From assembly GCF_023715365.1 (NCBI RefSeq), contig NZ_JAMBNZ010000003.1:124001-188000 (forward strand): a DNA stretch of 64,000 bases, read 5' to 3'. Within the stretch, counting starts at the first letter, position 1; each line of letters opens with the position of its first letter. The DNA comes from Georgenia satyanarayanai (GTDB lineage: Bacteria > Actinomycetota > Actinomycetes > Actinomycetales > Actinomycetaceae). The notes beneath the pieces are model-generated. The model did no database searches, had not been told where the DNA came from, and saw only the letters and a program-made list of their open reading frames with translations. Position numbers and translations under genes: made by a program. Below, piece by piece: positions 14,227 through 41,011 of the stretch.

Positions 14227-14299
14227 GCCCCCATCGTCTAGCGGCCTAGGACCCCGCCCTTTCACGGCGGTAGCACGGGTTCGAATCCCGTTGGGGGTA
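14227..14299 (+). tRNA. tRNA-Glu (anticodon UUC)
   Basis: Acceptor GCCCCCA pairs with TGGGGGT (first pair G-U). The anticodon stem is CCGCC/GGCGG with loop CTTTCAC, and the T arm is ACGGG-TTCGAAT-CCCGT. Discriminator A14299. CCA is not encoded. Confidence 0.97.
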
Positions 14300-14344
14300 C
14301 GAGCAGCACGACAGCAGAACAAGCAGGAAGCCTTGTCACCACAA

Positions 14345-14418
14345 GGCCCCGTAGCGCAGTTGGTTAGCGCGCCGCCCTGTCACGGCGGAGGTCGCGGGTT
14401 CGAGTCCCGTCGGGGTCG
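14345..14418 (+). tRNA. tRNA-Asp (anticodon GUC)
   Basis: Acceptor GGCCCCG pairs with CGGGGTC (one G-U). The anticodon stem is CCGCC/GGCGG with loop CTGTCAC, and the T arm is GCGGG-TTCGAGT-CCCGT. The discriminator is G, as required for Asp identity. Its anticodon arm is nearly identical to that of the preceding tRNA-Glu. Confidence 0.97.
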
Positions 14419-14463
14419 CGGCGGAAGGCCCGGTCAGAGTTCTGGCCGGGCCTTCGCACACCA

Positions 14464-14536
14464 GGCTCTGTAGCTCAGTTGGTAGAGCGTTCGACTGAAA
14501 ATCGAAAGGTCACCGGATCGACGCCGGTCGGAGCCA
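14464..14536 (+). tRNA. tRNA-Phe (anticodon GAA)
   Basis: Acceptor GGCTCTG pairs with CGGAGCC (one U-G). The anticodon stem is TTCGA/TCGAA with loop CTGAAAA. The T stem is ACCGG/CCGGT, but its loop reads ATCGACG, with A in place of the usual T54. The rest of the cloverleaf is normal. Confidence 0.95.
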
Positions 14537-14540
14537 CACC

Positions 14541-14655: not shown

Positions 14656-17600
14656 TCAGGACGCCGGGGTGCGGCGCACGCCCAGGGTGTCCTTGCCGTC
14701 GCCGTTCCAGTCACCGACGTAGACCTCGTCACCGGAGCGGCCGTAGACCATGACGAAGTCGGCCGGACCGTCACGCAGGGAGTTCTTCACGTGGAACTCG
14801 CGGTCCCGTCGGATCGCAAAGGTGTCCGTGCCGTTGCCGTCCCAGTCCCCGGCGAGGGGGACGTCGTTCGGGCGGCCGTAGGTGAAGACCACGTCGGCGT
14901 CGCCGCCGGCGATGCGGTTCTTCGCGTAGTAGGTCGCGCCACGGCGCACCGCGAGGGTGTCCGTGCCGTTGCCGTCCCAGTCGCCGACCAGGACGTCGTC
15001 GTTCGCGCGCCCGTAGGAGATGACGCGGTCGGCGTCACCGCCGCGTAGGGAGTTCTTCACGTAGTACTGCGCCCCACGACGCACCGCCAGCGTGTCGACG
15101 CCGTCACCGTCCCAGTCGCCGACGAGGACGACGTCGTCGGGCCGCCCGTAGGCGAAGACCGTCGTCGCGGGGCCGCCGCGTGGCGCGTCGTTGACGAAGT
15201 ACTCCCTCCCGCGGCGCACCGTGATGGTGTCGGTGCCGTTGCCGTCCCAGTCACCGATGAGCACCTCGTCGGTGAACCGCCCGTACTGGAAGGCGTAGTG
15301 GGCCTTGCCGGACCAGTCGTCGGACAGGAAGAACCCGAAGCGCAGCGGCTGGTCCGCAGCCGTGATCGTCACCGGCACCCGGACGGTGGTCCCGCTGGGT
15401 GCGGCCTCCATCTCCAAGGTGTACTCGCCGTCCAGGTCACCCGGCACGGTGAAGGTGACGGTGGCCGCGCCGTCGGTGACGGGGGCAGTGTGCACGGCCT
15501 CGCCCCGCTCACCGTCCGCGCCGACGAGGTAGACGGCCAGCTCGGTGTTGTCCGGGCTGCCCAGGGAGGTGAGGTCGAGCCTGCTGACCTCGAAGGACAC
15601 CTCCTCGCCGGCCACCAGCTCCGAGGGGAGCGGCGTGAGGACGGTCGCCCGACGCGCGAAGTCCGGGGACAGCGGGGAGCTGTTCTCGATGTAGGAGATC
15701 CAGCCGTCGCGGTCGATGAGACCGGTCTGCTGGACGTCCGTGGCGTCGGCGAAGACGGTGAAGTTGTCACCGCCCTGGGCGAGGAAGGAGAACGTCCCGA
15801 TGCGGTACTCCGCGGCCGTGTCGAGCGGCTGCCCGTCAACGGTCACGGAGGTGATCCGCTCGCCGCGCTCGGCGGTCGGGTCCATCGTGTAGGAGACGTT
15901 GTCCGACAGTCCCAGGTGCAGGAAGCTGCGTGAGGACGACTCGGGCTGCCACTGCTGCTCGAGCATCTCCTTGAACTGGGCGCCCGTGAGGGTGACGGTC
16001 CACAGGTCGTTGAGGAAGGGCAGCACCGCGTTCGCCTCGGCGAAGGTGATCTTCCCGTCCTCCCCGTAGCGCAGGTCGGCCCGCAGGCCACCGGGGTTGA
16101 CCACGCCGATCTGGGCGCCGCCCAGGTTCTGCGCACTCAGCGTGTCGCGCAGCGCGTTGCCGACGAGGTTGCCCAGCGTCGACTCGCTGCCGCGGTCGTC
16201 ACGCCCCCCGGCCGCGGTGAACGCCGTCGTGATGTCGGCGCTCACGCTACCCACGACCTCGTTGCCGATCTCCGCCGCACGCGCGAGCGCGGCGTCCAGG
16301 ATCGTCTTGACCTCGGCGACGCGCGCGTAGGTCTGGACCAGCTCACCCATCGGGGTGGTGGACGCGGGCACGTTGCGGTGGTCGTAGTCGACGACGTCAC
16401 CGGACTCGCGGTCCACGGTGAGGACCACCTGCGAGACGTACTCGCCGTAGCTCTCGCCCTGGATCACCGGGCGGAAGGCGCCCTCCTCGCCGGGAACCGG
16501 GCCGTCCCACGCGTAGACCTTGTGGGTGTGGCCGTTGAAGATCGCGTCCACGGCGCTGGTCGTGCCGCCCACGATGTGGGCGAAGGTCTCGCTCGAGGCG
16601 ATCTCCTCCTCCAGGGACGAGGCGTTCTCGTCGAAGCCTGCACCCTCGTGGTAGGAGGCGACGATGACGTCGGCCTCGCCGTTGGCCCCGTCCCCGTCGG
16701 TCAGCGCGGCCGCGACGCGGTTGACCGCCTCGACGGGGTCACCGAACTCGAGCATGGCGATGCCCTCGGGGCTGACGAGGCTGGGGGTCTCCTGCGTGAC
16801 GGCGCCGATGACGGCGACCGTCAGCCCCTCGACCTCGACGGTCTCGTAGGCCGGCAGGGCCGGCTCTCCGGTGGCCTTGACGGTCACGTTGGCGCCGAGG
16901 TGCCTGAAGTCGGCCCACTCCGTCACCTGTCCGGTGAGGTTGTCGTAGCCGCCGTCGAACTCGTGGTTGCCGACCGTCGCGGCAGTGAGGTCGAGCGCGT
17001 TGAGGATGTCGATGGTGGGCTTGTCCTCCTGGAGCGCGGAGGTGAACAGCGAGGCACCGATGTTGTCACCGGAGGAGAAGAGGATGGTGTTCCCCTCACC
17101 CTCCTGGGCGCGCAGCTCCTCGATCGTGCCCGCGAAGGCGAGCGTGTCGTTGCCGAGGACCGCGCCGGTGTCACGGTCGCGGGTGTAGTCGAACAGGCGG
17201 CCGTGGAAGTCGTTGAACGCCAGCAGGTTGATGTCCACCGTGGGCCCCGGCTCATCGGCGAGGAGGTCCACCCCCACGATGATCGGGTCGTGGTCGCTGG
17301 ACCGGTACGGCGAGGCGTCGTGGAAGTCGGTGACGTTGTAGTTGTACCGGCTGTACTCGAAGGCGATCGACTCGTAGGCGTTGATGTTCCAGATGTCCGC
17401 GCCGGTCACCGCCGCGGTGGCCGCCTCGCTCGCCAGGACGTGGTCGAGCGAGCCGACCATCGAGCCGAAGGAGTACGTCGACTTCTCCGTGAGCTCGTCG
17501 CCGAGGTCCGTGTAGCCGTTCTCGTAGAAGACCTGCATCGGGTCTTCCTGGGTGTAGGAGTTGAAGTCACCGGCGAGGAACACCAGCTCCGTGCCGGCGT

Positions 17601-19713
17601 CGGCCGCGACCTCGTCGGCGAAGGCGACGAGCGCCTCGGCCTGGCGGACCCGGTCGGGGTTCGAGGCCCCCTGGCCGTCGCCCTGGTCGGCGTTCTCCCC
17701 CGAGCCGGAGCCCTTGGACTTGAAGTGGTTGTTGATGACGACGAAGGAGTCGGCGTCCTCGACGACGTCACCGTTCTCGTCGACCGGCGCGAACTCCTGG
17801 GCCATCGGCTCGCGGGCGTTGCCGAACGCGGCGCTGTCGAGCAGGATCTTGGTGCCGCCGACCGGGGTGACGGCGTCGACCTGGTAGATGAAGGCGTTGC
17901 GGATGACGTCCTCGGCCGCGGGGAACTGCTCCGCGGACACGACGTACTCCCACCGCTCCTCGCCCGCGCCCGCGTTGAGGGCGTCGACGAGGTCGGACAG
18001 GGCGTGGTCACGGTCAGCGGCGGTGTTGCCGGGGGCGAAGGGCAGCGAGTTCTCGATCTCCTGAAGGGCGACGACGTCGGCGTCCAGGGCGTTGACGGCG
18101 CTGACGATCTTCTCGGTCTGACGGGCCAGGTTCGCCGCGTCGTAGGCACCGCGGACGTCGCAGCTGCGCGCCGTCGTCGGGCCACCCAGGCGGTCACCGA
18201 AGAAGCCGCAGCCGGCCTCCTCGTCGCCGAGGCTGGTGAAGTAGTTGAGGACGTTGAAGGTGGCGAGCCTGACGTCGCCGCCAACCTCCTCCGGGGCCTC
18301 CGGCCGGGTGTTCTCCCAGTTGATGGGCTGGACCTCGGCGGCGTTGGCGCCGGTGAGGCGGCTCTGCGGCTGGAAGTTCCAGGTGGCGTCCTCGCCTGCG
18401 ACGGTGCGACGGAAGTCGAGGATGACCGGGCCCTGGAACTCGACCGGCGCGCCCACCCGGACCGGGTTGTCCGGCGTCAGGTAGGCGACCGGGGTCCCGT
18501 GGTCGTCGAAGGAGAAGTTGGTCCAGTCGTGGCTGGAGCCGTCGTCCATCCGGATCGCGCGGTCGGCGTTCGCGGCGAGGAGGCCGGTGTAGGCCTCGGT
18601 GCCCGGGCGCACGACGTCGGTCGGCTGGCGCAGGGGCTCGTCGCCCGCGGCCAGGCCCACCCAGCCGAAGCGGTTGGTGTGGTAGGTGTCGGTCACCGTG
18701 AAGGCGCCCTGCGGGGCGAGCAGCATGCCCTCGAAGGCCTCGCGCTCGTCGACCGCCGGCAGGGGGACCTGGGCCGGGACGACGTCGGCGGCAGGCTCGT
18801 CGAGGACCCTGTGGCTCGCCGCGGCGATCTGGGTGAGGCCGAAGTACTCGCCGGCCGTGCCGGTCACCTCGACGAGGTCGCCGACCTCGACGTCACTGGC
18901 GAGCTGCGTGCCGCCGGCGAAGACGAAGATGCCGTGCGAGGCGTCGTGGCCCTCGAGGTCCGCGCCGGTGCCTGGGGTCTGGATGAAGGCGCCGTTGAAA
19001 CCGCCGTCGGCGTAGACGCCGGTGACGACGCCGCGGGTGGTGACGGTCTGGCCCAGCAGCGGGGTCGCGTCGCCCGTGCCCTGGATCTCGGCGATCGGCG
19101 TCACCGCACCCGGCTCGGGGTCCGGGTCCGGGCCGGGCTCCTCGACGGCGCTGTTGACGGCACCGAAGGAGCTCGCGGACGGACCGGTCCACACGCCGTC
19201 GACCCGCTGGAGCGACTGCCCGGCAGGGGTGCTGCCCGGCTGCATGACGCCGATGTCGATGCTCTGCACGCCGTCGGCAGGACCGCCCGACGCGGTCATG
19301 ACGCCCTCGTAGGAGAGGAACTCGACGAGCGCACCGGAGGCGTCGATGAGCGCGACGCCGTCGGGCCCACCGTTCTGGACACCGTTCTCCGGGTACTCCT
19401 GGACGACGACGCCCGACTCCCCGACCGTTCCGTCGAGAGTCTTGGTGTCGTACACGGAGCCGTTGCCGCCGTTGTAGAGAACGACCTGCCAGCCGGTGAG
19501 GTCGGTCCCGGCCGGGGCCTGAACCTCGATCGCCTCCCCCTGGTCCGTGCCGTCGTTGTCGTAGTGGATCTCGCTGATGAACACGGGTCCCGTGCTCATG
19601 AGCGCGGCCGCGGGGGTAACGGCGACGAGCGGGGTGAGGATGAGGGAGGCGACTCCGACCGCGGCCACACCCCCTCTGCCACGAGTGGTGGACCTACGGG
19701 GGACTCGGCTCAC
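14656..19713 (-). CDS. Secreted ExeM/NucH-type nuclease fused to 5'-nucleotidase with C-terminal repeats
   Basis: A 1685-residue extracellular protein. Order: signal peptide (1-37), lamin-tail-like domain (about 38-180, VFISEIHYDNDGTDQGEAIE), OB-fold region (about 200-330), EEP nuclease of the ExeM/NucH type (from about 480, VRLATFNVLNYF, QEIEN, GDFNSY, SDHDP), calcineurin-like 5'-nucleotidase (from about 826, LAFNDFHGRL, GNHEFDGG, NGHTHK, then its C-terminal substrate domain to about 1350), and five 45-residue repeats (about 1460-1685). It could degrade extracellular DNA and dephosphorylate the released nucleotides for uptake. There is no sorting signal or LPXTG motif, so it is secreted or held by the repeats. 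GTG start at 19713 with GAAGGAG upstream. Confidence 0.9.
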   Translation of the reverse strand: MSRVPRRSTTRGRGGVAAVGVASLILTPLVAVTPAAALMSTGPVFISEIHYDNDGTDQGEAIEVQAPAGTDLTGWQVVLYNGGNGSVYDTKTLDGTVGESGVVVQEYPENGVQNGGPDGVALIDASGALVEFLSYEGVMTASGGPADGVQSIDIGVMQPGSTPAGQSLQRVDGVWTGPSASSFGAVNSAVEEPGPDPDPEPGAVTPIAEIQGTGDATPLLGQTVTTRGVVTGVYADGGFNGAFIQTPGTGADLEGHDASHGIFVFAGGTQLASDVEVGDLVEVTGTAGEYFGLTQIAAASHRVLDEPAADVVPAQVPLPAVDEREAFEGMLLAPQGAFTVTDTYHTNRFGWVGLAAGDEPLRQPTDVVRPGTEAYTGLLAANADRAIRMDDGSSHDWTNFSFDDHGTPVAYLTPDNPVRVGAPVEFQGPVILDFRRTVAGEDATWNFQPQSRLTGANAAEVQPINWENTRPEAPEEVGGDVRLATFNVLNYFTSLGDEEAGCGFFGDRLGGPTTARSCDVRGAYDAANLARQTEKIVSAVNALDADVVALQEIENSLPFAPGNTAADRDHALSDLVDALNAGAGEERWEYVVSAEQFPAAEDVIRNAFIYQVDAVTPVGGTKILLDSAAFGNAREPMAQEFAPVDENGDVVEDADSFVVINNHFKSKGSGSGENADQGDGQGASNPDRVRQAEALVAFADEVAADAGTELVFLAGDFNSYTQEDPMQVFYENGYTDLGDELTEKSTYSFGSMVGSLDHVLASEAATAAVTGADIWNINAYESIAFEYSRYNYNVTDFHDASPYRSSDHDPIIVGVDLLADEPGPTVDINLLAFNDFHGRLFDYTRDRDTGAVLGNDTLAFAGTIEELRAQEGEGNTILFSSGDNIGASLFTSALQEDKPTIDILNALDLTAATVGNHEFDGGYDNLTGQVTEWADFRHLGANVTVKATGEPALPAYETVEVEGLTVAVIGAVTQETPSLVSPEGIAMLEFGDPVEAVNRVAAALTDGDGANGEADVIVASYHEGAGFDENASSLEEEIASSETFAHIVGGTTSAVDAIFNGHTHKVYAWDGPVPGEEGAFRPVIQGESYGEYVSQVVLTVDRESGDVVDYDHRNVPASTTPMGELVQTYARVAEVKTILDAALARAAEIGNEVVGSVSADITTAFTAAGGRDDRGSESTLGNLVGNALRDTLSAQNLGGAQIGVVNPGGLRADLRYGEDGKITFAEANAVLPFLNDLWTVTLTGAQFKEMLEQQWQPESSSRSFLHLGLSDNVSYTMDPTAERGERITSVTVDGQPLDTAAEYRIGTFSFLAQGGDNFTVFADATDVQQTGLIDRDGWISYIENSSPLSPDFARRATVLTPLPSELVAGEEVSFEVSRLDLTSLGSPDNTELAVYLVGADGERGEAVHTAPVTDGAATVTFTVPGDLDGEYTLEMEAAPSGTTVRVPVTITAADQPLRFGFFLSDDWSGKAHYAFQYGRFTDEVLIGDWDGNGTDTITVRRGREYFVNDAPRGGPATTVFAYGRPDDVVLVGDWDGDGVDTLAVRRGAQYYVKNSLRGGDADRVISYGRANDDVLVGDWDGNGTDTLAVRRGATYYAKNRIAGGDADVVFTYGRPNDVPLAGDWDGNGTDTFAIRRDREFHVKNSLRDGPADFVMVYGRSGDEVYVGDWNGDGKDTLGVRRTPAS
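14660..15330 (-). repeat. Five in-frame 135-bp repeats at the 3' end of the nuclease gene
   Basis: The string GTGTC followed by the GCCGT/CCAGTC block recurs starting at 14687, 14822, 14957, 15092 and 15227, exactly 135 bases apart each time. Each unit encodes a 45-residue module with YGR...GDWDGNGTDTLAVRR and an Asp-rich, calcium-binding-like loop (DWDGNGTD) similar to FG-GAP/VCBS-type beta-propeller or surface-binding repeats. The units are diverged in third positions, so the array is not a very recent expansion. Confidence 0.9.
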
Positions 19714-20015
19714 GGGTGCTCCTTCTCCGGCCGCCCGGCCGGGTGTGTCGTGCGCGCGACGACGCGCGCAGCGGAGGGGTCGGCCCGCTCATCATGTGGC
19801 ACGGGCCACGTCCTCGTCAACGTCTCACTCTGCGAGATGCGAGTTGTTCACCGTCCCGTCGCCGCCCAGTCACCGGCCCGCGGCGCGCCCGTCCGCGCCG
19901 GACCGTGAGCGGCTCGCGCGGCGAGGACGTGCACGGCACGCCGATCCCCGCGATCATGGGGCAGCAACGACGACTGCACGACGACGGCGCTTCGGCGCGG
20001 AGAAGAGGGAGACGC
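19714..20015. other. Intergenic region between divergent genes
   Basis: These 302 bases hold no convincing gene. They separate the divergent nuclease gene and the holin-like gene and must contain both promoters. A short perfect dyad, GTGGC-N4-GCCAC, lies at about 19795-19808, and a G+C-rich stretch with repeated GCGCGC lies at about 19751-19775. No clear -35/-10 pair was found. Confidence 0.5.
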
Positions 20016-21574: not shown

Positions 21575-22681
21575 TCAGCTGCGGTAGCTGCCGTGCATGC
21601 GCACGGCTCCGCCACGCATGCCCTTGGTGCCGGTGACGACGTCGCCGTCGCTGTCGGTGAGGCGCTCCACCGTGCCCAGCGGCCACGCGTCGATGCCGGC
21701 CGCACGCGCCGTCCGGACCGCCTGCTCCGCCGCGGACGGGGCGAGGACCGCCACCATGCCGACACCGAGGTTGAGCGTCTGCTCGAGGTCGGGCCACTCG
21801 ACCGGACCGAGGCGACGCACGACGTCGAAGACGGCCGGCACCTGCCAGGAGCCCCGCTCGACGTGGCCGACGAGCCCGGCTGGCAGCACGCGGGCGAGGT
21901 TCGCCGCGAGCCCTCCGCCGGTGACGTGCGAGAGGGCGTGCAGCCCGTCGTCTTCCGCGAGCTCCAGGCACAGCCGCGTGTACAGCCGGGTGGGCTCGAG
22001 GAGCTCCTCCCCGACGGTGCGCCCGAGCTCGGGGACCTCGCGCTCGAGGGACCAGCCGCTCACCTCGAGGACGCGGCGGACGAGGGAGTAGCCGTTGGCG
22101 TGCAGGCCGGAGGAGGCGAGCGCGACGAGGACGTCGCCCTCGGCCACCCGCTCGGGGCCCAGCACGCGGTCGGCCTCGACGACGCCCGTCGCGGCGCCTG
22201 CGACGTCGTACTCGTCGGGGCCCAGGAGGCCGGGGTGCTCGGCCGTCTCCCCGCCCACGAGGGCGGTGCCGGTCAGGGCGCAGGCCTCGGCGATGCCGCG
22301 GACGATGGCGGCGATCCGCTCGGGCACGACCCGCCCGCAGGCGATGTAGTCCGTCATGACGAGCGGGCGGGCCCCCACGACGACGATGTCGTCGACGACC
22401 ATGCCGACGAGGTCGTGGCCGATGGTGTCGTGGACGTCCATCGCCTGGGCGATGGCGACCTTGGTGCCGACGCCGTCGGTGGAGGTGGCGAGAAGCGGAC
22501 GGCGGTACTCGCGCAGCGCGGAGGCGTCGTAGAGCCCGGCGAAGCCGCCGGCGCCACCGACGACCTCGGGTCCGTGGGTGGCGCGCAGCGCACCCTTCAT
22601 GAGCTCGACGGCGCGGTCACCCGCCTCCGTGTCGACGCCGGCCGCGGCGTAGCTGATAGGGGTGCGGTTCTCGGTGCTCAC
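21575..22681 (-). CDS. purM: Phosphoribosylformylglycinamidine cyclo-ligase
   Basis: A 368-residue AIR synthetase, the ATP-dependent ring closure of FGAM to AIR in purine synthesis. Typical motifs: ISYAAAGVD at the start, LLATSTDGVGTKVAIA (about 64-79), GHDLVGMVVDDIVV and GARPLVMTDYIA (about 88-113), GGETAEHPG (about 143), HVTGGGLAANLARVL (about 250). The GTG start at 22681 shares one base with the TAG of purF (TAGTG), so the pair is translationally coupled. A shared hairpin terminates it. Confidence 0.97.
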   Translation of the reverse strand: MSTENRTPISYAAAGVDTEAGDRAVELMKGALRATHGPEVVGGAGGFAGLYDASALREYRRPLLATSTDGVGTKVAIAQAMDVHDTIGHDLVGMVVDDIVVVGARPLVMTDYIACGRVVPERIAAIVRGIAEACALTGTALVGGETAEHPGLLGPDEYDVAGAATGVVEADRVLGPERVAEGDVLVALASSGLHANGYSLVRRVLEVSGWSLEREVPELGRTVGEELLEPTRLYTRLCLELAEDDGLHALSHVTGGGLAANLARVLPAGLVGHVERGSWQVPAVFDVVRRLGPVEWPDLEQTLNLGVGMVAVLAPSAAEQAVRTARAAGIDAWPLGTVERLTDSDGDVVTGTKGMRGGAVRMHGSYRS

Positions 22682-24204
22682 TACGCTCCAGCGATCGTCA
22701 GGGACCCCGGGTGCCGGGGCGGGAGGACCTGGTAGTCATGCCGCTCGGTCGAGACCTCGGCGTCCTCGACCGGCACGGGGTACTCGCCGGTGAAGCAGGC
22801 GGTGCACAGCCGCGTGCGGGGCACGGCGGTAGCCTCGATCATCCCGTCCGTGGAGATGTACCCGAGGCTGTCGGCGCCGAGGGAGGCACGAATCTCCTCG
22901 ATGCTCATGCCGTTGGCGATGAGCTCGGCGCGCGTGGCGAAGTCGATGCCGTAGAAGCAGGGCCACTTCACCGGCGGGGAGGAGATGCGGACGTGGATCT
23001 CCGCGGCCCCGGCCTCACGCAGCATGCGGACGAGGGCGCGCTGGGTGTTGCCGCGGACGATGGAGTCGTCGACGACGACGAGCCGCTTGCCGGCAATGAC
23101 CTCGCGCAGCGGGTTGAGCTTGAGCTTGATGCCGAGCTGGCGGATCGTGTCTGTCGGCTGGATGAAGGTGCGCCCGACGTAGGCGTTCTTCACCAGCCCC
23201 TGCGCGAAGGGGATGCCGGAGGCCTGCGCGTAGCCGATGGCGGCGGGCGTCCCGGAGTCGGGGGTGGGGATGACGAGGTCCGCGTCGACGGGGTGCTCGC
23301 GGGCCAGCACCCGGCCCATCTCGCTGCGCGCCGCGTTGACCGAGCGTCCGGCGATCTGCGTGTCCGGCCGGGCGAGGTAGACGTACTCGAAGACGCAGCC
23401 GCGCGGGCTGGGCTCGGCGAAGTGCTGCGAGCGCAGCCCGTCCTCGTCGACGACGACGAGCTCGCCGGGCTCGATCTCCCGCACGAAGGTGGCCCCCACG
23501 ATGTCGAGGGCCGCGGTCTCCGAGGCGATGGCCCAGCCGCGCTGCAGCCGGCCCAGCACGAGGGGCCGGAAGCCGTGCGGGTCGCGGGCGGCGTAGAGGG
23601 AGTGCTCGTCCATGAAGACGAGCGAGAAGGCGCCCTCGAGGAGCGGCAGCACGCTCATCGCCGTCGCCTCGAGCGACCCGGAGCCCTCACCGGCGGTCCC
23701 GGAGAGGAGGGCGGTGATGACGGCGGTGTCGGTGGAGCTGCCCCGCCCGAGCTCGCCGGACAGGTCCGTGCCCGACTGCTCGCGCACGAGCTCCATGAGC
23801 CGGCGCGTGTTGGTGAGGTTGCCGTTGTGGCCGAGCGCGACCGTGCCGCTGCCTGCCGGGCCGAGGGTGGGCTGGGCGTTCTCCCACGCGCTGGCCCCCG
23901 TCGTCGCGTAGCGCACGTGTCCGACGGCGATGTGTCCCCGCAGCGCGGACAGCGTCCGGTCGTCGAAGACCTGGGAGACGAGGCCCATGTCCTTGTAGAC
24001 GAGGAGCTGCTCACCGTTGCTCGTCGCGATGCCGGCCGACTCCTGCCCGCGGTGCTGCAGCGCGTAGATGCCGAAGTACGTGAGGCGGGCGACCTCCTCC
24101 CCGGGCGCCCAGACCCCGAAGACCCCGCACTCGTCCTGGGGCGGGGCCTCCCCCGGGAGCAGGTCGTGACTCAGCCGTCCGTCTCCGCGTCGCACGTGTG
24201 CCAT
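22681..24204 (-). CDS. purF: Amidophosphoribosyltransferase
   Basis: A 507-residue first enzyme of purine synthesis, making phosphoribosylamine from PRPP and glutamine. A 25-residue propeptide precedes the nucleophile Cys26 (DECGVFGVWAP), with glutamine-site RYATTG and HNGNLTNT following. The phosphoribosyltransferase domain carries VVVDDSIVRGNT (PRPP loop). Cysteines in GCVFEY, WPCFYG and CTACFTGEYP fit the Fe-S cluster type known from Bacillus. The start is ATG 24204; an upstream ATG at 24216 would add four residues only. It is followed at once by purM. Confidence 0.97.
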   Translation of the reverse strand: MAHVRRGDGRLSHDLLPGEAPPQDECGVFGVWAPGEEVARLTYFGIYALQHRGQESAGIATSNGEQLLVYKDMGLVSQVFDDRTLSALRGHIAVGHVRYATTGASAWENAQPTLGPAGSGTVALGHNGNLTNTRRLMELVREQSGTDLSGELGRGSSTDTAVITALLSGTAGEGSGSLEATAMSVLPLLEGAFSLVFMDEHSLYAARDPHGFRPLVLGRLQRGWAIASETAALDIVGATFVREIEPGELVVVDEDGLRSQHFAEPSPRGCVFEYVYLARPDTQIAGRSVNAARSEMGRVLAREHPVDADLVIPTPDSGTPAAIGYAQASGIPFAQGLVKNAYVGRTFIQPTDTIRQLGIKLKLNPLREVIAGKRLVVVDDSIVRGNTQRALVRMLREAGAAEIHVRISSPPVKWPCFYGIDFATRAELIANGMSIEEIRASLGADSLGYISTDGMIEATAVPRTRLCTACFTGEYPVPVEDAEVSTERHDYQVLPPRHPGSLTIAGA

Positions 24205-24238
24205 GGTCCCACACACTCGCGCGCGTGGGCGGGTGCAG

Positions 24239-25681
24239 TCAGACGGGTGAGAACCGCACCGTCCGCCCGGGGACGTCCACCGCGTCCAGCCGCACGGTCA
24301 CCTGCTCGCCGAGCGGCAGCCCGGGAGCCCGGACGGACGCCTCGACGGCGGGCTCGGCGATGACGACGGTGCCGCGCACGCCGTCGTCGTCCTCGTCGAC
24401 CTCGACGACGACGCCACGGAACTCCTCCCCGACCCTGCTCTCGAGGACGAGGGCCTCGACGGCGTCGACGGCGCCCCGCTCGTAGCGCCCGGCCCGCTGG
24501 GTGGTGCGGGCCATGACCCGGGGCAGCTCGGGCAGCGCGGCGTGCACCCACCCGGGGACGGGCTCCCCGGCGCAGACGGCGCGGCAGACCTCGAGGCCGG
24601 CGCGGTCGACGAGGCGGCGCAGCGGCGCGGTGACGTGGGCGTAGTGGGCGGCGATGGCGGCGTGGCGGGTGTCGCCGCCCTCGTCCTGACCGAGGACGGC
24701 GTAGCCGGCGCCGCGGAAGAGGGTGGTCGCCTCGGTGAGGAAGGCGGCGTGGGCTGGGACGGCGGAGTCGAGGGTGGGAAGGAGGTCCTGGTAGGACACG
24801 TCCTCGGGCCACGCGATGCCGAGGCCGCGCGCGGTGCGGCGCAGGCGGGCGAGGTCGCGCGGGTCAGCGGGCGGCAGGGTGCGCAGGATGCCCACGCCGG
24901 CGCCGCGCATGAGCTCGGCGGCACAGATTCCGGTGAGGAGGGAGATCTGGGCGTTCCACTCCTCCGCGGGCGAGGTGGCGCGGAAGGCGAGGGCGTAGCC
25001 GCCGTCGCGGGCCACGACCTCTTGCTCGGGGATCTCGAGGGAGACGCCGCCGCGTGCCCGCTCCTGGGCGAGGCGCAGCTCGCCGAGCCGGCGCAGCAGC
25101 CCGGGCAGGGTGGGCGGGACGGCGGGGTCGCTGCCGCCGTCGACGACGTCCTGGATCTGGCCGTAGGTGAGCTGCGCACGGCTGCGGACCAGGGCCCGGC
25201 GCACGAAGGCTTCGCGGACCGTTCCGTCGGCGTCGAGCGCGATGCGCCACAGGTAGGCAGGGCGGTCCTCGCCCGGCAGGAGGCTGGCGGCGCCGGCGCT
25301 GAGGACCTCGGGGTGCAGGGGCGTGGAGCCGGTGGGGCCGTAGACGGTGACGCCCCGCGCGTGGACGGCGGCGTCGAGGGCGCCGCCGGGCGTGACGAAG
25401 GAGGCGAGGTCGGCGATGGCGTAGTGGACGAGGAACCCCTCGCCGTCCTCCTCGAGGTGGACGGCCTGGTCGAGGTCGCGGGAGCCGGGCGGGTCGACCG
25501 TGACGAGGGGCAGGTCGCGCGCGTCCGGCAGGTCGGGCAGCGGGCGCCGGGCGGCTTCCTGCGCCTCGGACAGTGCCGCGGGCGGGAGGTCGACGGGGAT
25601 GTCGAGCTCGGCGCGGAGCCGGTCGAGGGACTGCGCGACGCGCGCGGGCGGGGCCGGCAGGTGGAGCTGGCGGGTGGGCAC
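24239..25681 (-). CDS. RNB-domain exoribonuclease (RNase II/R family)
   Basis: A 480-residue 3'-5' exoribonuclease. The RNB catalytic domain begins near residue 60, with the metal-binding Asp cluster in VTVDPPGSRDLDQAVHLE and YAIADLASFV, and continues through TGSTPLHPEVLS and HYAHVTAPLRRLVDR (about 375-390). Cold-shock/S1 domains typical of full RNase R are absent or reduced to a short C-terminal OB-like part, making this the compact actinobacterial form. GTG 25681 (MPTRQLHLPAPPARV) is chosen because it follows the stop of the membrane-protein gene by 7 bases. Confidence 0.88.
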   Translation of the reverse strand: MPTRQLHLPAPPARVAQSLDRLRAELDIPVDLPPAALSEAQEAARRPLPDLPDARDLPLVTVDPPGSRDLDQAVHLEEDGEGFLVHYAIADLASFVTPGGALDAAVHARGVTVYGPTGSTPLHPEVLSAGAASLLPGEDRPAYLWRIALDADGTVREAFVRRALVRSRAQLTYGQIQDVVDGGSDPAVPPTLPGLLRRLGELRLAQERARGGVSLEIPEQEVVARDGGYALAFRATSPAEEWNAQISLLTGICAAELMRGAGVGILRTLPPADPRDLARLRRTARGLGIAWPEDVSYQDLLPTLDSAVPAHAAFLTEATTLFRGAGYAVLGQDEGGDTRHAAIAAHYAHVTAPLRRLVDRAGLEVCRAVCAGEPVPGWVHAALPELPRVMARTTQRAGRYERGAVDAVEALVLESRVGEEFRGVVVEVDEDDDGVRGTVVIAEPAVEASVRAPGLPLGEQVTVRLDAVDVPGRTVRFSPV

Positions 25682-25688
25682 GCCGCGC

Positions 25689-26069
25689 TCAGTCCCGGCC
25701 ACGGCGGCGCAGGGATCGGCGGTCGGCGACGAGTGCCCAGGTAAGGCCCGCGAAGACGCCCGCGGTACCGAGGGCCAGGAGCAGGAGGAGGAACAGGGTG
25801 CCGCGCGCGAGACCCGAACCGCCCACCGGGAGGAAGGTGAGGGCGAGGGAGAGGAGCGCGCCGAGGATGAAGCCGAGGAGGCCGAACCGTCCGTAGCGGG
25901 GGGCGCGCCGCACCCGGCTCGGGTCGGCGACATCGATCGCCCGGGCGACGGGAGCGTCCTCGGCGGGCGGTCCGGCGGGCGAGGCGGTGTCCGCGGGGGG
26001 CGCGACGTCGGCCGCGGGAGGTGCGGCGGGGTCGGGTGATGCGGCGGGGGCGGGCTCGGGCGTGCTCAC
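25689..26069 (-). CDS. Membrane protein of unknown function with Pro/Ala-rich N-terminus
   Basis: A 126-residue protein: a disordered Ala/Pro-rich N-terminus (1-55), then two membrane segments (about 63-82 and 87-110) and a basic tail RRSLRRRGRD. The pattern PRYGRFGLLGFILGALLSLA before the first segment is seen in many actinobacterial membrane proteins, but I cannot name the family. GTG start at 26069. It lies just upstream of the RNB ribonuclease and is probably cotranscribed with it. Confidence 0.75.
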   Translation of the reverse strand: MSTPEPAPAASPDPAAPPAADVAPPADTASPAGPPAEDAPVARAIDVADPSRVRRAPRYGRFGLLGFILGALLSLALTFLPVGGSGLARGTLFLLLLLALGTAGVFAGLTWALVADRRSLRRRGRD

Positions 26070-40784: not shown

Positions 40785-40950
40785 GTCATCGGACCTGAGA
40801 GTTTTCTGCGGGCATGGTGCCCGCACTTCCCCGTCGGTGAGCCCGGAGGGCTGCTTTCCAGAGGTGCCTCGCCGTGGCGGTATGGGGGCCTGAGAGTTTC
40901 CGGGGAGGTTGCTCCTTCGGCGCCCGCCTGCGCGGGTCTCTCCCGCCGCG
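40785..40950 (-). promoter_or_regulatory. Tandem glycine riboswitch (gcvT-type), two aptamers
   Basis: Read on the minus strand, aptamer 1 (about 40948-40889) has GCGGGAGAGACC, the conserved GCCGAAGGAGCAA core and GGAAACTCTCAGG. Aptamer 2 (about 40886-40793) has CTCTGGAAAGC, CACCGACGGGGAAG and AAACTCTCAGGT, and the element ends GATGACAGAG. Both cores and the short linker match the double-aptamer glycine riboswitch. The gene it precedes is the EamA transporter, not a glycine cleavage gene. The downstream expression platform is not clear; a small GGGAACGGTCCC hairpin follows at about 40778-40767. Confidence 0.95.
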
Positions 40951-41011
40951 AGTCGAAGGCTGTGAAGTTGTCGGGACAAGTCTCTCACACGGCCTGGTCC
41001 GCCCCCGACGG

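Follow-up and report, generated by a model that had tools for sequence, protein, structure and literature searches.

A predicted five-bladed propeller on a nuclease–5′-nucleotidase chain of Georgenia satyanarayanai, shared with other putatively secreted proteins and apparently swapped between some of their genes

Why does a very large, putatively secreted protein of Georgenia satyanarayanai, in which two putative enzymes of nucleic-acid use are joined in one chain, end in an array of repeats, and what might such an array do for it? The gene lies in the window, by which we mean the whole stretch of 64,000 nucleotides of contig NZ_JAMBNZ010000003.1 that was analysed. The original prediction described a giant secreted protein at 14656–19713, and indeed this interval is an open reading frame of 1685 amino acids on the minus strand, with a signal-peptide-like N-terminus. 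Its parts, and those of its control region, are as follows:

14656..19713 (−): whole coding sequence, 1685 amino acids, GTG start; from the open reading frame list, with orthologues and gene order kept in G001–G004
19603..19713 (−): signal-peptide-like N-terminus (about aa 1–37); by heuristic and reading of the sequence
19306..19596 (−): lamin-tail-like domain (aa 40–136); PF00932, below the gathering cut-off
17263..19038 (−): ExeM/NucH nuclease (aa 226–817), with Exo_endo_phos at aa 485–808; by NF033681, PF03372 and catalytic positions
15667..17244 (−): UshA-type 5′-nucleotidase (aa 824–1349); by PF00149, PF02872 and UshA sequence and fold
15343..15648 (−): linker (aa 1356–1457), Ig-like by inspection only; sequence inference
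14668..15342 (−): five-bladed beta-propeller cassette, 5 x 45 aa (aa 1458–1682); by repeats and predicted fold
19791..19820 (−): promoter-like −35 TTGACG and −10 CATGAT, spacing 18 nt; by pattern search
19719..19728 (−): ribosome-binding-site-like GGAGAAGGAG, just 5′ of the GTG start

The promoter-like TTGACG/CATGAT pair was seen once where 0.1 occurrences were expected, and neither of its hexamers nor GGAGAAGGAG varies among five aligned genomes of the genus. As to a possible control by phosphate, matches to a PHO-box-like pattern number 8 against 4.3 expected, the sites near the gene having three mismatches each. The order of the neighbouring genes is kept in G001–G004; upstream, at 21575–25933 (−), are AIR-synthase-related (purM-like), amidophosphoribosyltransferase-like (purF-like) and RNase II-like genes, whose order together with the nuclease gene is likewise kept in these genomes. 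Three tRNA genes (Glu, Asp, Phe; 14227–14537, +) adjoin the 3′ end of the open reading frame and are convergent with it. An open frame of 1176 amino acids on the opposite strand (16378–19908, +) is most likely a shadow ORF of high-GC coding DNA, and elsewhere in the window a glycine riboswitch aptamer is found at 40868–40955 (−).

By family membership and conserved catalytic positions the chain reads as an ExeM/NucH nuclease followed by a UshA-type 5′-nucleotidase, each presumably with the activity of its family, and this part of the original prediction stands. The nuclease model ExeM_NucH_DNase (NF033681) is matched at aa 226–817 with 562.4 bits (cut-off 300); the ExeM-GG model (NF033680) is not reached (162 bits, cut-off 1300), the chain having no hydrophobic C-terminal tail. 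Pfam places Exo_endo_phos at 485–808, Metallophos at 830–1065 and 5_nucleotid_C at 1168–1322, and both PF00149 (28.7 bits, cut-off 21.5) and PF02872 (126.4 bits, cut-off 23.6) pass; the UshA equivalog model is not reached (177 bits, cut-off 600). In a sequence search, structures of Escherichia coli UshA match aa 824–1349, and the nucleotidase half follows the two-domain UshA fold along its whole length with Z 33.9, in a comparison by which the nuclease half was hardly probed. The predicted structure of both enzymes has a pLDDT of 89.1 and a pTM of 0.58, which leaves the relative placement of the halves uncertain. In an alignment of 33 fused proteins the nuclease residues E552, H663, D716, N718, D807 and H808 and the nucleotidase residues D835, H837, D883, N916, H917, H1022 and H1062 are invariant, and H1064 is kept in at least 90%. 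From their motifs these residues are putatively catalytic, those of the nuclease being equated with ExeM residues by motif rather than by alignment. No second match to either enzyme half was found in the genome at E ≤ 0.001. As to the lamin-tail domain that had also been predicted, PF00932 does match at aa 40–136 (E 1.1e-6), with a score of 29.4 bits that stays under the cut-off of 34.3.

ExeM of Shewanella is described as a sugar-unspecific endonuclease that degrades DNA and RNA and requires calcium plus magnesium or manganese (PMC6085458). The window protein has a lamin-tail-like, OB-like and EEP order as in ExeM and conserved positions of its catalytic motifs (PMC6085458); it differs in its fusion to a 5′-nucleotidase and a propeller and in the missing hydrophobic tail. 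With 5′-nucleotidases of the UshA/CD73 type it shares the two-domain fold and the metal-site motifs, whereas here the nucleotidase is part of a larger chain. The nuclease of a DNA-degrading Izemoplasma is likewise large and secreted, combines a lamin-tail with a nuclease and is linked with nucleotidases in DNA feeding (PMC8289736), but it has 1,049 amino acids, and neither a fused nucleotidase nor a propeller is mentioned in the passages on it. The stepwise use of DNA that had been proposed for the chain, nuclease first and nucleotidase second with uptake of nucleosides and phosphate, is plausible from the families concerned. This does not mean that the order of domains in the chain by itself establishes the order of reactions.

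The fusion of the two enzymes is an ordinary and common actinobacterial type. The original prediction regarded them as usually separate proteins, which is true only in part: Actinomycetota often have them fused, and for the same reason the idea of an unusual fusion was dropped; separate genes do occur in some genomes. A scan of named genomes gave at least 567 relatives, and in all of the best 80 that were retained both halves stand in the same order in one open reading frame, a result biased towards fused forms since the ranking favours full coverage. Fusions of Arthrobacter, Microbacterium, Cellulomonas and Micromonospora, for example, have both enzymes in equal order. Within the order, 113 of 149 sampled genomes have a match to the enzyme core (E ≤ 1e-40) and at least 35 of the 149 have the fusion in one frame, as counted by eye among the matches listed, one of which (G076) covers positions 299–1144 only. 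In G013, G028, G046, G134, G148 and G161 a nuclease and a nucleotidase gene lie on the same strand within about 2 kb; in other genomes the two genes lie apart; and in G006 and G009 the enzymes are separate, each with propeller repeats of its own. Fusion, close same-strand genes and separate propeller-bearing genes all fit a joint role of the two enzymes in the use of nucleic acids.

A single origin of the fusion was rejected, the nuclease tree needing six changes of state and its well-supported branches forcing at least four. This tree, from which duplicate loci and every other one of the 80 fused loci were omitted, has 58 rows (48 fused and 10 separate, some of the separate ones on long branches); the nucleotidase tree was built by a quick method only. 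What varies among the fused proteins is the tail. Among the best 80 homologues it is a propeller in 2, LPXTG-like in 11, otherwise hydrophobic in 5 and none of these in 62, from which it follows that retention is no general need of the enzyme. The two propellers are those of the Georgenia satyanarayanai and Oceanitalea stevensii loci, to which the enzyme core of the window protein is 82–86% identical; by this identity we assign the window protein to the Georgenia/Oceanitalea lineage.

The repeats seen in the original prediction are indeed there; what had been missed is that they constitute a predicted propeller module common to 19 other proteins of the genome. The array (aa 1458–1682) consists of five units, each exactly 45 amino acids long, and an AlphaFold model of the module from 49 sequences (pLDDT 92.2, pTM 0.87) has 20 strands arranged as five blades, so that the array is predicted to be a five-bladed VCBS-type beta-propeller. 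Every unit contains the blade motif DW[DN]G[DN]G, a putative cation motif of the DxDxDG type, with D or N allowed at two positions. Among 75 blades out of 15 modules at most 4 deviate at any motif position and the first D is kept in all 75; the charged positions R22 (70/75), D25 (74/75), R43 (73/75) and R44 (75/75) are nearly invariant. The propeller of the window protein matches no Pfam model (PF13517 included) and no NCBIfam model, and the Pfam search gave no match for the linker at aa 1356–1457. Elsewhere, PF13517 reached 26.4 bits at L016 (cut-off 26.9) and 28.0 bits at L084, in another genome.

Propellers are frequent protein binders. Those of the VCBS-like kind are typically tied to carbohydrate recognition, binding of proteins being noted too (PMC9218822). 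The VCBS supercluster is characterised by the DxDxDG motif and has integrin and tachylectin members (Pereira and Lupas, PMC8023676). The module shares with the VCBS, FG-GAP and tachylectin propellers the four-stranded blades and this motif, and with tachylectin-2 the number of five blades (PMC8023676); it differs by its blades of exactly 45 amino acids and by the lack of a PF13517 match in the window protein. In the structural comparison the top row was UmbA4, a lectin of the Streptomyces umbrella toxins (9oee_A; Z 13.5 over 221 residues, rmsd 4.0, 24% identity), followed by a row with Z 10.5 and, in third place, by a GlcNAc-binding fungal lectin. Plain Foldseek ranks propellers other than UmbA4 first, and by profile search UmbA4 was found with E 0.002, its best single stretch having an i-Evalue of 0.82 and none being convincing. 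The ligand of the UmbA4 propeller is a polymer resembling teichuronic acid and linked to wall teichoic acid (PMC13274773). UmbA lectins have similar propeller blades, and some of them, e.g., UmbA5, are five-bladed (PMC13274773); UmbA4 itself, which serves a toxin particle, has six blades and a trypsin-like domain (PMC13274773), whereas the Pfam search found no trypsin-like domain in the window protein. The likeness to UmbA4 is thus one of blades, six there and five here. Together with the tie between VCBS-like propellers and carbohydrates it makes a glycopolymer lectin the leading guess, and the propeller probably is a lectin for a shared surface or matrix glycopolymer. A catalytic propeller, as in GH43/GH62-like folds (Z about 8), is thought unlikely because the blades are near-symmetric.

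When the genome was searched with the window protein, 20 further match rows appeared, all of them within its last ~300 residues. The module is present on 20 proteins, namely the window protein and 19 others: a subtilase, a sialidase, a GH3 and a GH18 protein, a gamma-glutamyltransferase, a SpoIID-like protein, an amidase, a VanY protein, two CAP proteins, a multicopper oxidase, an Excalibur-like protein (weak match), three ThuA/glucose-dehydrogenase giants with two related ones, one protein with no Pfam match and one (L018) with little beyond a signal peptide and the propeller. The five giants (loci L012, L013, L014 and L021; contigs C142 and C153) are about 1800–2600 amino acids long, have ThuA, glucose-dehydrogenase, PKD, CBM6 or related domains and continue for 17–24 amino acids after the module. 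Nine of the 20 tagged genes are on the single contig C142. A signal-peptide-like N-terminus is seen in all 20 products by a simple heuristic, with two of the cases corrected by reading. Sixteen of them bear the module at the C-terminus and the other 4 close to the N-terminus; the occurrence of the module near either end indicates that it acts like a binding domain and not like a C-terminal sorting signal, and on the same count the latter was given up as the main reading.

Five congeneric genomes have 31, 27, 31, 21 and 13 module matches (some fragments or split), the last of these genomes being 57% complete. The module occurs in 24 of 149 genomes of the order and in 13 of 198 of the phylum, the own genome being counted in both. 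Outside the class, G187 and G219 have 8 and 20 matches to the propeller model (some split), with hosts including L084, L088, L095, L104 and L107, among which are SpoIID-like, metallophosphatase and other proteins. There is no support for an origin of the module from phages or plasmids, since the plasmid and phage collections contained no match to it; the best hit in PHROGs had E 0.003, with nothing convincing. Among the titles listed in searches of open-licence papers, none concerned this propeller cassette or this nuclease/5′-nucleotidase fusion. On our reading the cassette is a VCBS-type propeller that tags secreted proteins throughout the lineage and is swapped between genes.

Indeed, the cassette recombines as a unit between genes. 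In the window species the modules of the subtilase and the sialidase, two proteins encoded on separate contigs, have a DNA identity of 99.4%; the likeness ends at the module borders and the host Pfam domains differ. The corresponding two modules of O. stevensii are 97.9% identical to each other, and between the two species these modules are 88% identical. Draft assemblies could mix up near-identical repeats; against such an artefact, two assemblies show the protease/sialidase pattern, and the copies do differ. More generally, in 16 of 24 orthologous pairs (host identity ≥60% over ≥150 aa, one gene being in up to three pairs) a nearer module than the orthologous one is found on an apparently unrelated protein of the same genome, with a margin of at most 0.02 in 6 of the 16 and with a best-of-many choice of paralogue that favours this outcome. 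"Unrelated" here stands for hosts with no blastp match; those of G003 and G004 were compared over ~500 aa and may be related elsewhere. This comparison used 20, 22 and 18 modules from G000, G003 and G004 (one duplicate dropped), in which there are 20, 31 and 21 module matches, some fragments or split; the identity statistics within the genome are for 16 of 20 modules.

The gamma-glutamyltransferase genes of the two species (L025 and L237) are 92–99% identical per 75-base bin until 150 bases before the module, 87% and 76% in the bins approaching it, 52–89% inside it and 99% in one full bin after it. Over its length the gamma-glutamyltransferase module is ~76% identical, and the fall begins some 150 bases ahead of it. 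It should be noted that in G004, a one-contig genome, none of the 18 modules compared looks like a recent copy of another (79.7% identity in the best unrelated pair), so that the copying of cassettes is not uniform. The module of the window protein agrees with vertical descent, being 89% identical in DNA to that of O. stevensii and 78% to its best paralogue; it is slightly closer to this paralogue than to the G004 orthologue (76%). The gene itself, too, is a domain mosaic when window 17263–19596 (−) is compared between species with L026, L027 and L029. The window gene and that of O. stevensii are 95.9% identical in the nuclease, 72% in the lamin-tail-like part, 74–78% in the nucleotidase and 88% in the propeller; O. 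stevensii and the G. satyanarayanai locus are 97.9% identical in the lamin-tail-like part and 86.8% in the nuclease; and the lamin-tail-like parts of G004 and the window are 22% identical. Judged by these identities the parts of the chain seem to differ in history, a sharp change marking the border between nuclease and nucleotidase.

From the distribution of the module and its fold, the propeller is probably the part of the chain that determines its location. The best explanation, for which we consider the chances about even, is that it is an interchangeable non-covalent retention tag of the lineage's secreted proteins, which likely binds the producer's own wall or matrix glycopolymer. The secreted nuclease would cut extracellular nucleic acid, and the nucleotidase would strip phosphate from the freed nucleotides, giving phosphate and nucleosides, if both do what their families do. 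With as many as five similar sites, the propeller would bind a glycopolymer encountered by all tagged proteins, most likely a wall or matrix polymer of the producer, and would hold enzymes and products near the cell without a sortase, which would favour uptake by the producer. Cassette recombination would keep some propellers alike within a genome. We favour retention since the tag is common to proteins whose substrates are unrelated, a diversity that argues for a common ligand. As the original prediction stated, a cell-wall sorting motif is missing: the C-terminus, ...DTLGVRRTPAS, read from the sequence, has neither an LPXTG-type motif nor a hydrophobic tail. The genome has 4 sortase matches and 13 LPXTG-type anchor matches, the latter having no overlap by coordinates with the 20 module frames, and retention by a propeller is therefore not forced by a lack of sortase. 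Sortase is also present in 28 of 29 relatives, and a lack of it was accordingly rejected as the cause of the propeller.

Binding to the own surface and binding to a foreign one fit the present results alike. The propeller might take the enzymes to an environmental polysaccharide or to one on other cells, like carbohydrate-binding modules do, which is possible but rather unlikely. Tachylectin and other lectins belong to the VCBS supercluster (PMC8023676, PMC9218822), the UmbA4 propeller binds the wall polymer of another species (PMC13274773), and the hosts include GH18, GH3, sialidase and wall hydrolases, as would be expected of substrate targeting. The nuclease/nucleotidase, gamma-glutamyltransferase, multicopper oxidase and CAP proteins, however, have no obvious common substrate, and a protease and a sialidase bear near-identical modules. 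It appears improbable to us that the module is a tail which binds no specific ligand, stabilises the protein or is linked to its export, and owes its spread to recombination and duplication. The symmetric fold and the patchy distribution within order and phylum would suit such a tail, and recombination may be neutral, which is also why it is no proof of a shared ligand; against it speak the position of the module near either protein end and the nearly invariant charged blade positions R22, D25, R43 and R44, though these are perhaps structural. Least probable is a cellulosome-like docking of the tagged enzymes onto each other or onto a scaffold, for which the protein binding of propellers in general and of VCBS-like ones, the almost bare propeller protein L018 and the clustering of tagged genes on C142 can be cited, and for which we know of no partner domain.

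The reading as a retention tag has parallels. In pneumococcal choline-binding modules, GW modules and SLH domains, one repeat module attaches many unrelated surface enzymes non-covalently. The repeats of these systems are unrelated to the ones described here, for which ligand and attachment are proposals, but the choline-binding module would be the nearest functional analogy to the propeller tag, no relationship being claimed. A wider version of the retention reading can be advanced only tentatively, with doubts outweighing confidence: a sortase-independent retention of the exoproteome in which one propeller lectin on at least 20 mostly unrelated secreted proteins per genome would bind a species-specific surface glycopolymer, and recombination would keep the tags matched as the polymer changes between species.

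The enzyme pair is an ordinary actinobacterial route to feeding on nucleic acid; the tail is the more telling part of the chain. Other fused homologues of Actinomycetota differ in this tail. The exchange of the cassette among unrelated genes may be considered a natural record of the uniformity of a binding domain across an exoproteome. Should the retention reading hold, the propeller would be a swappable lectin domain for display or purification and would explain how a Gram-positive lineage keeps many secreted enzymes and their products nearby without sortase.
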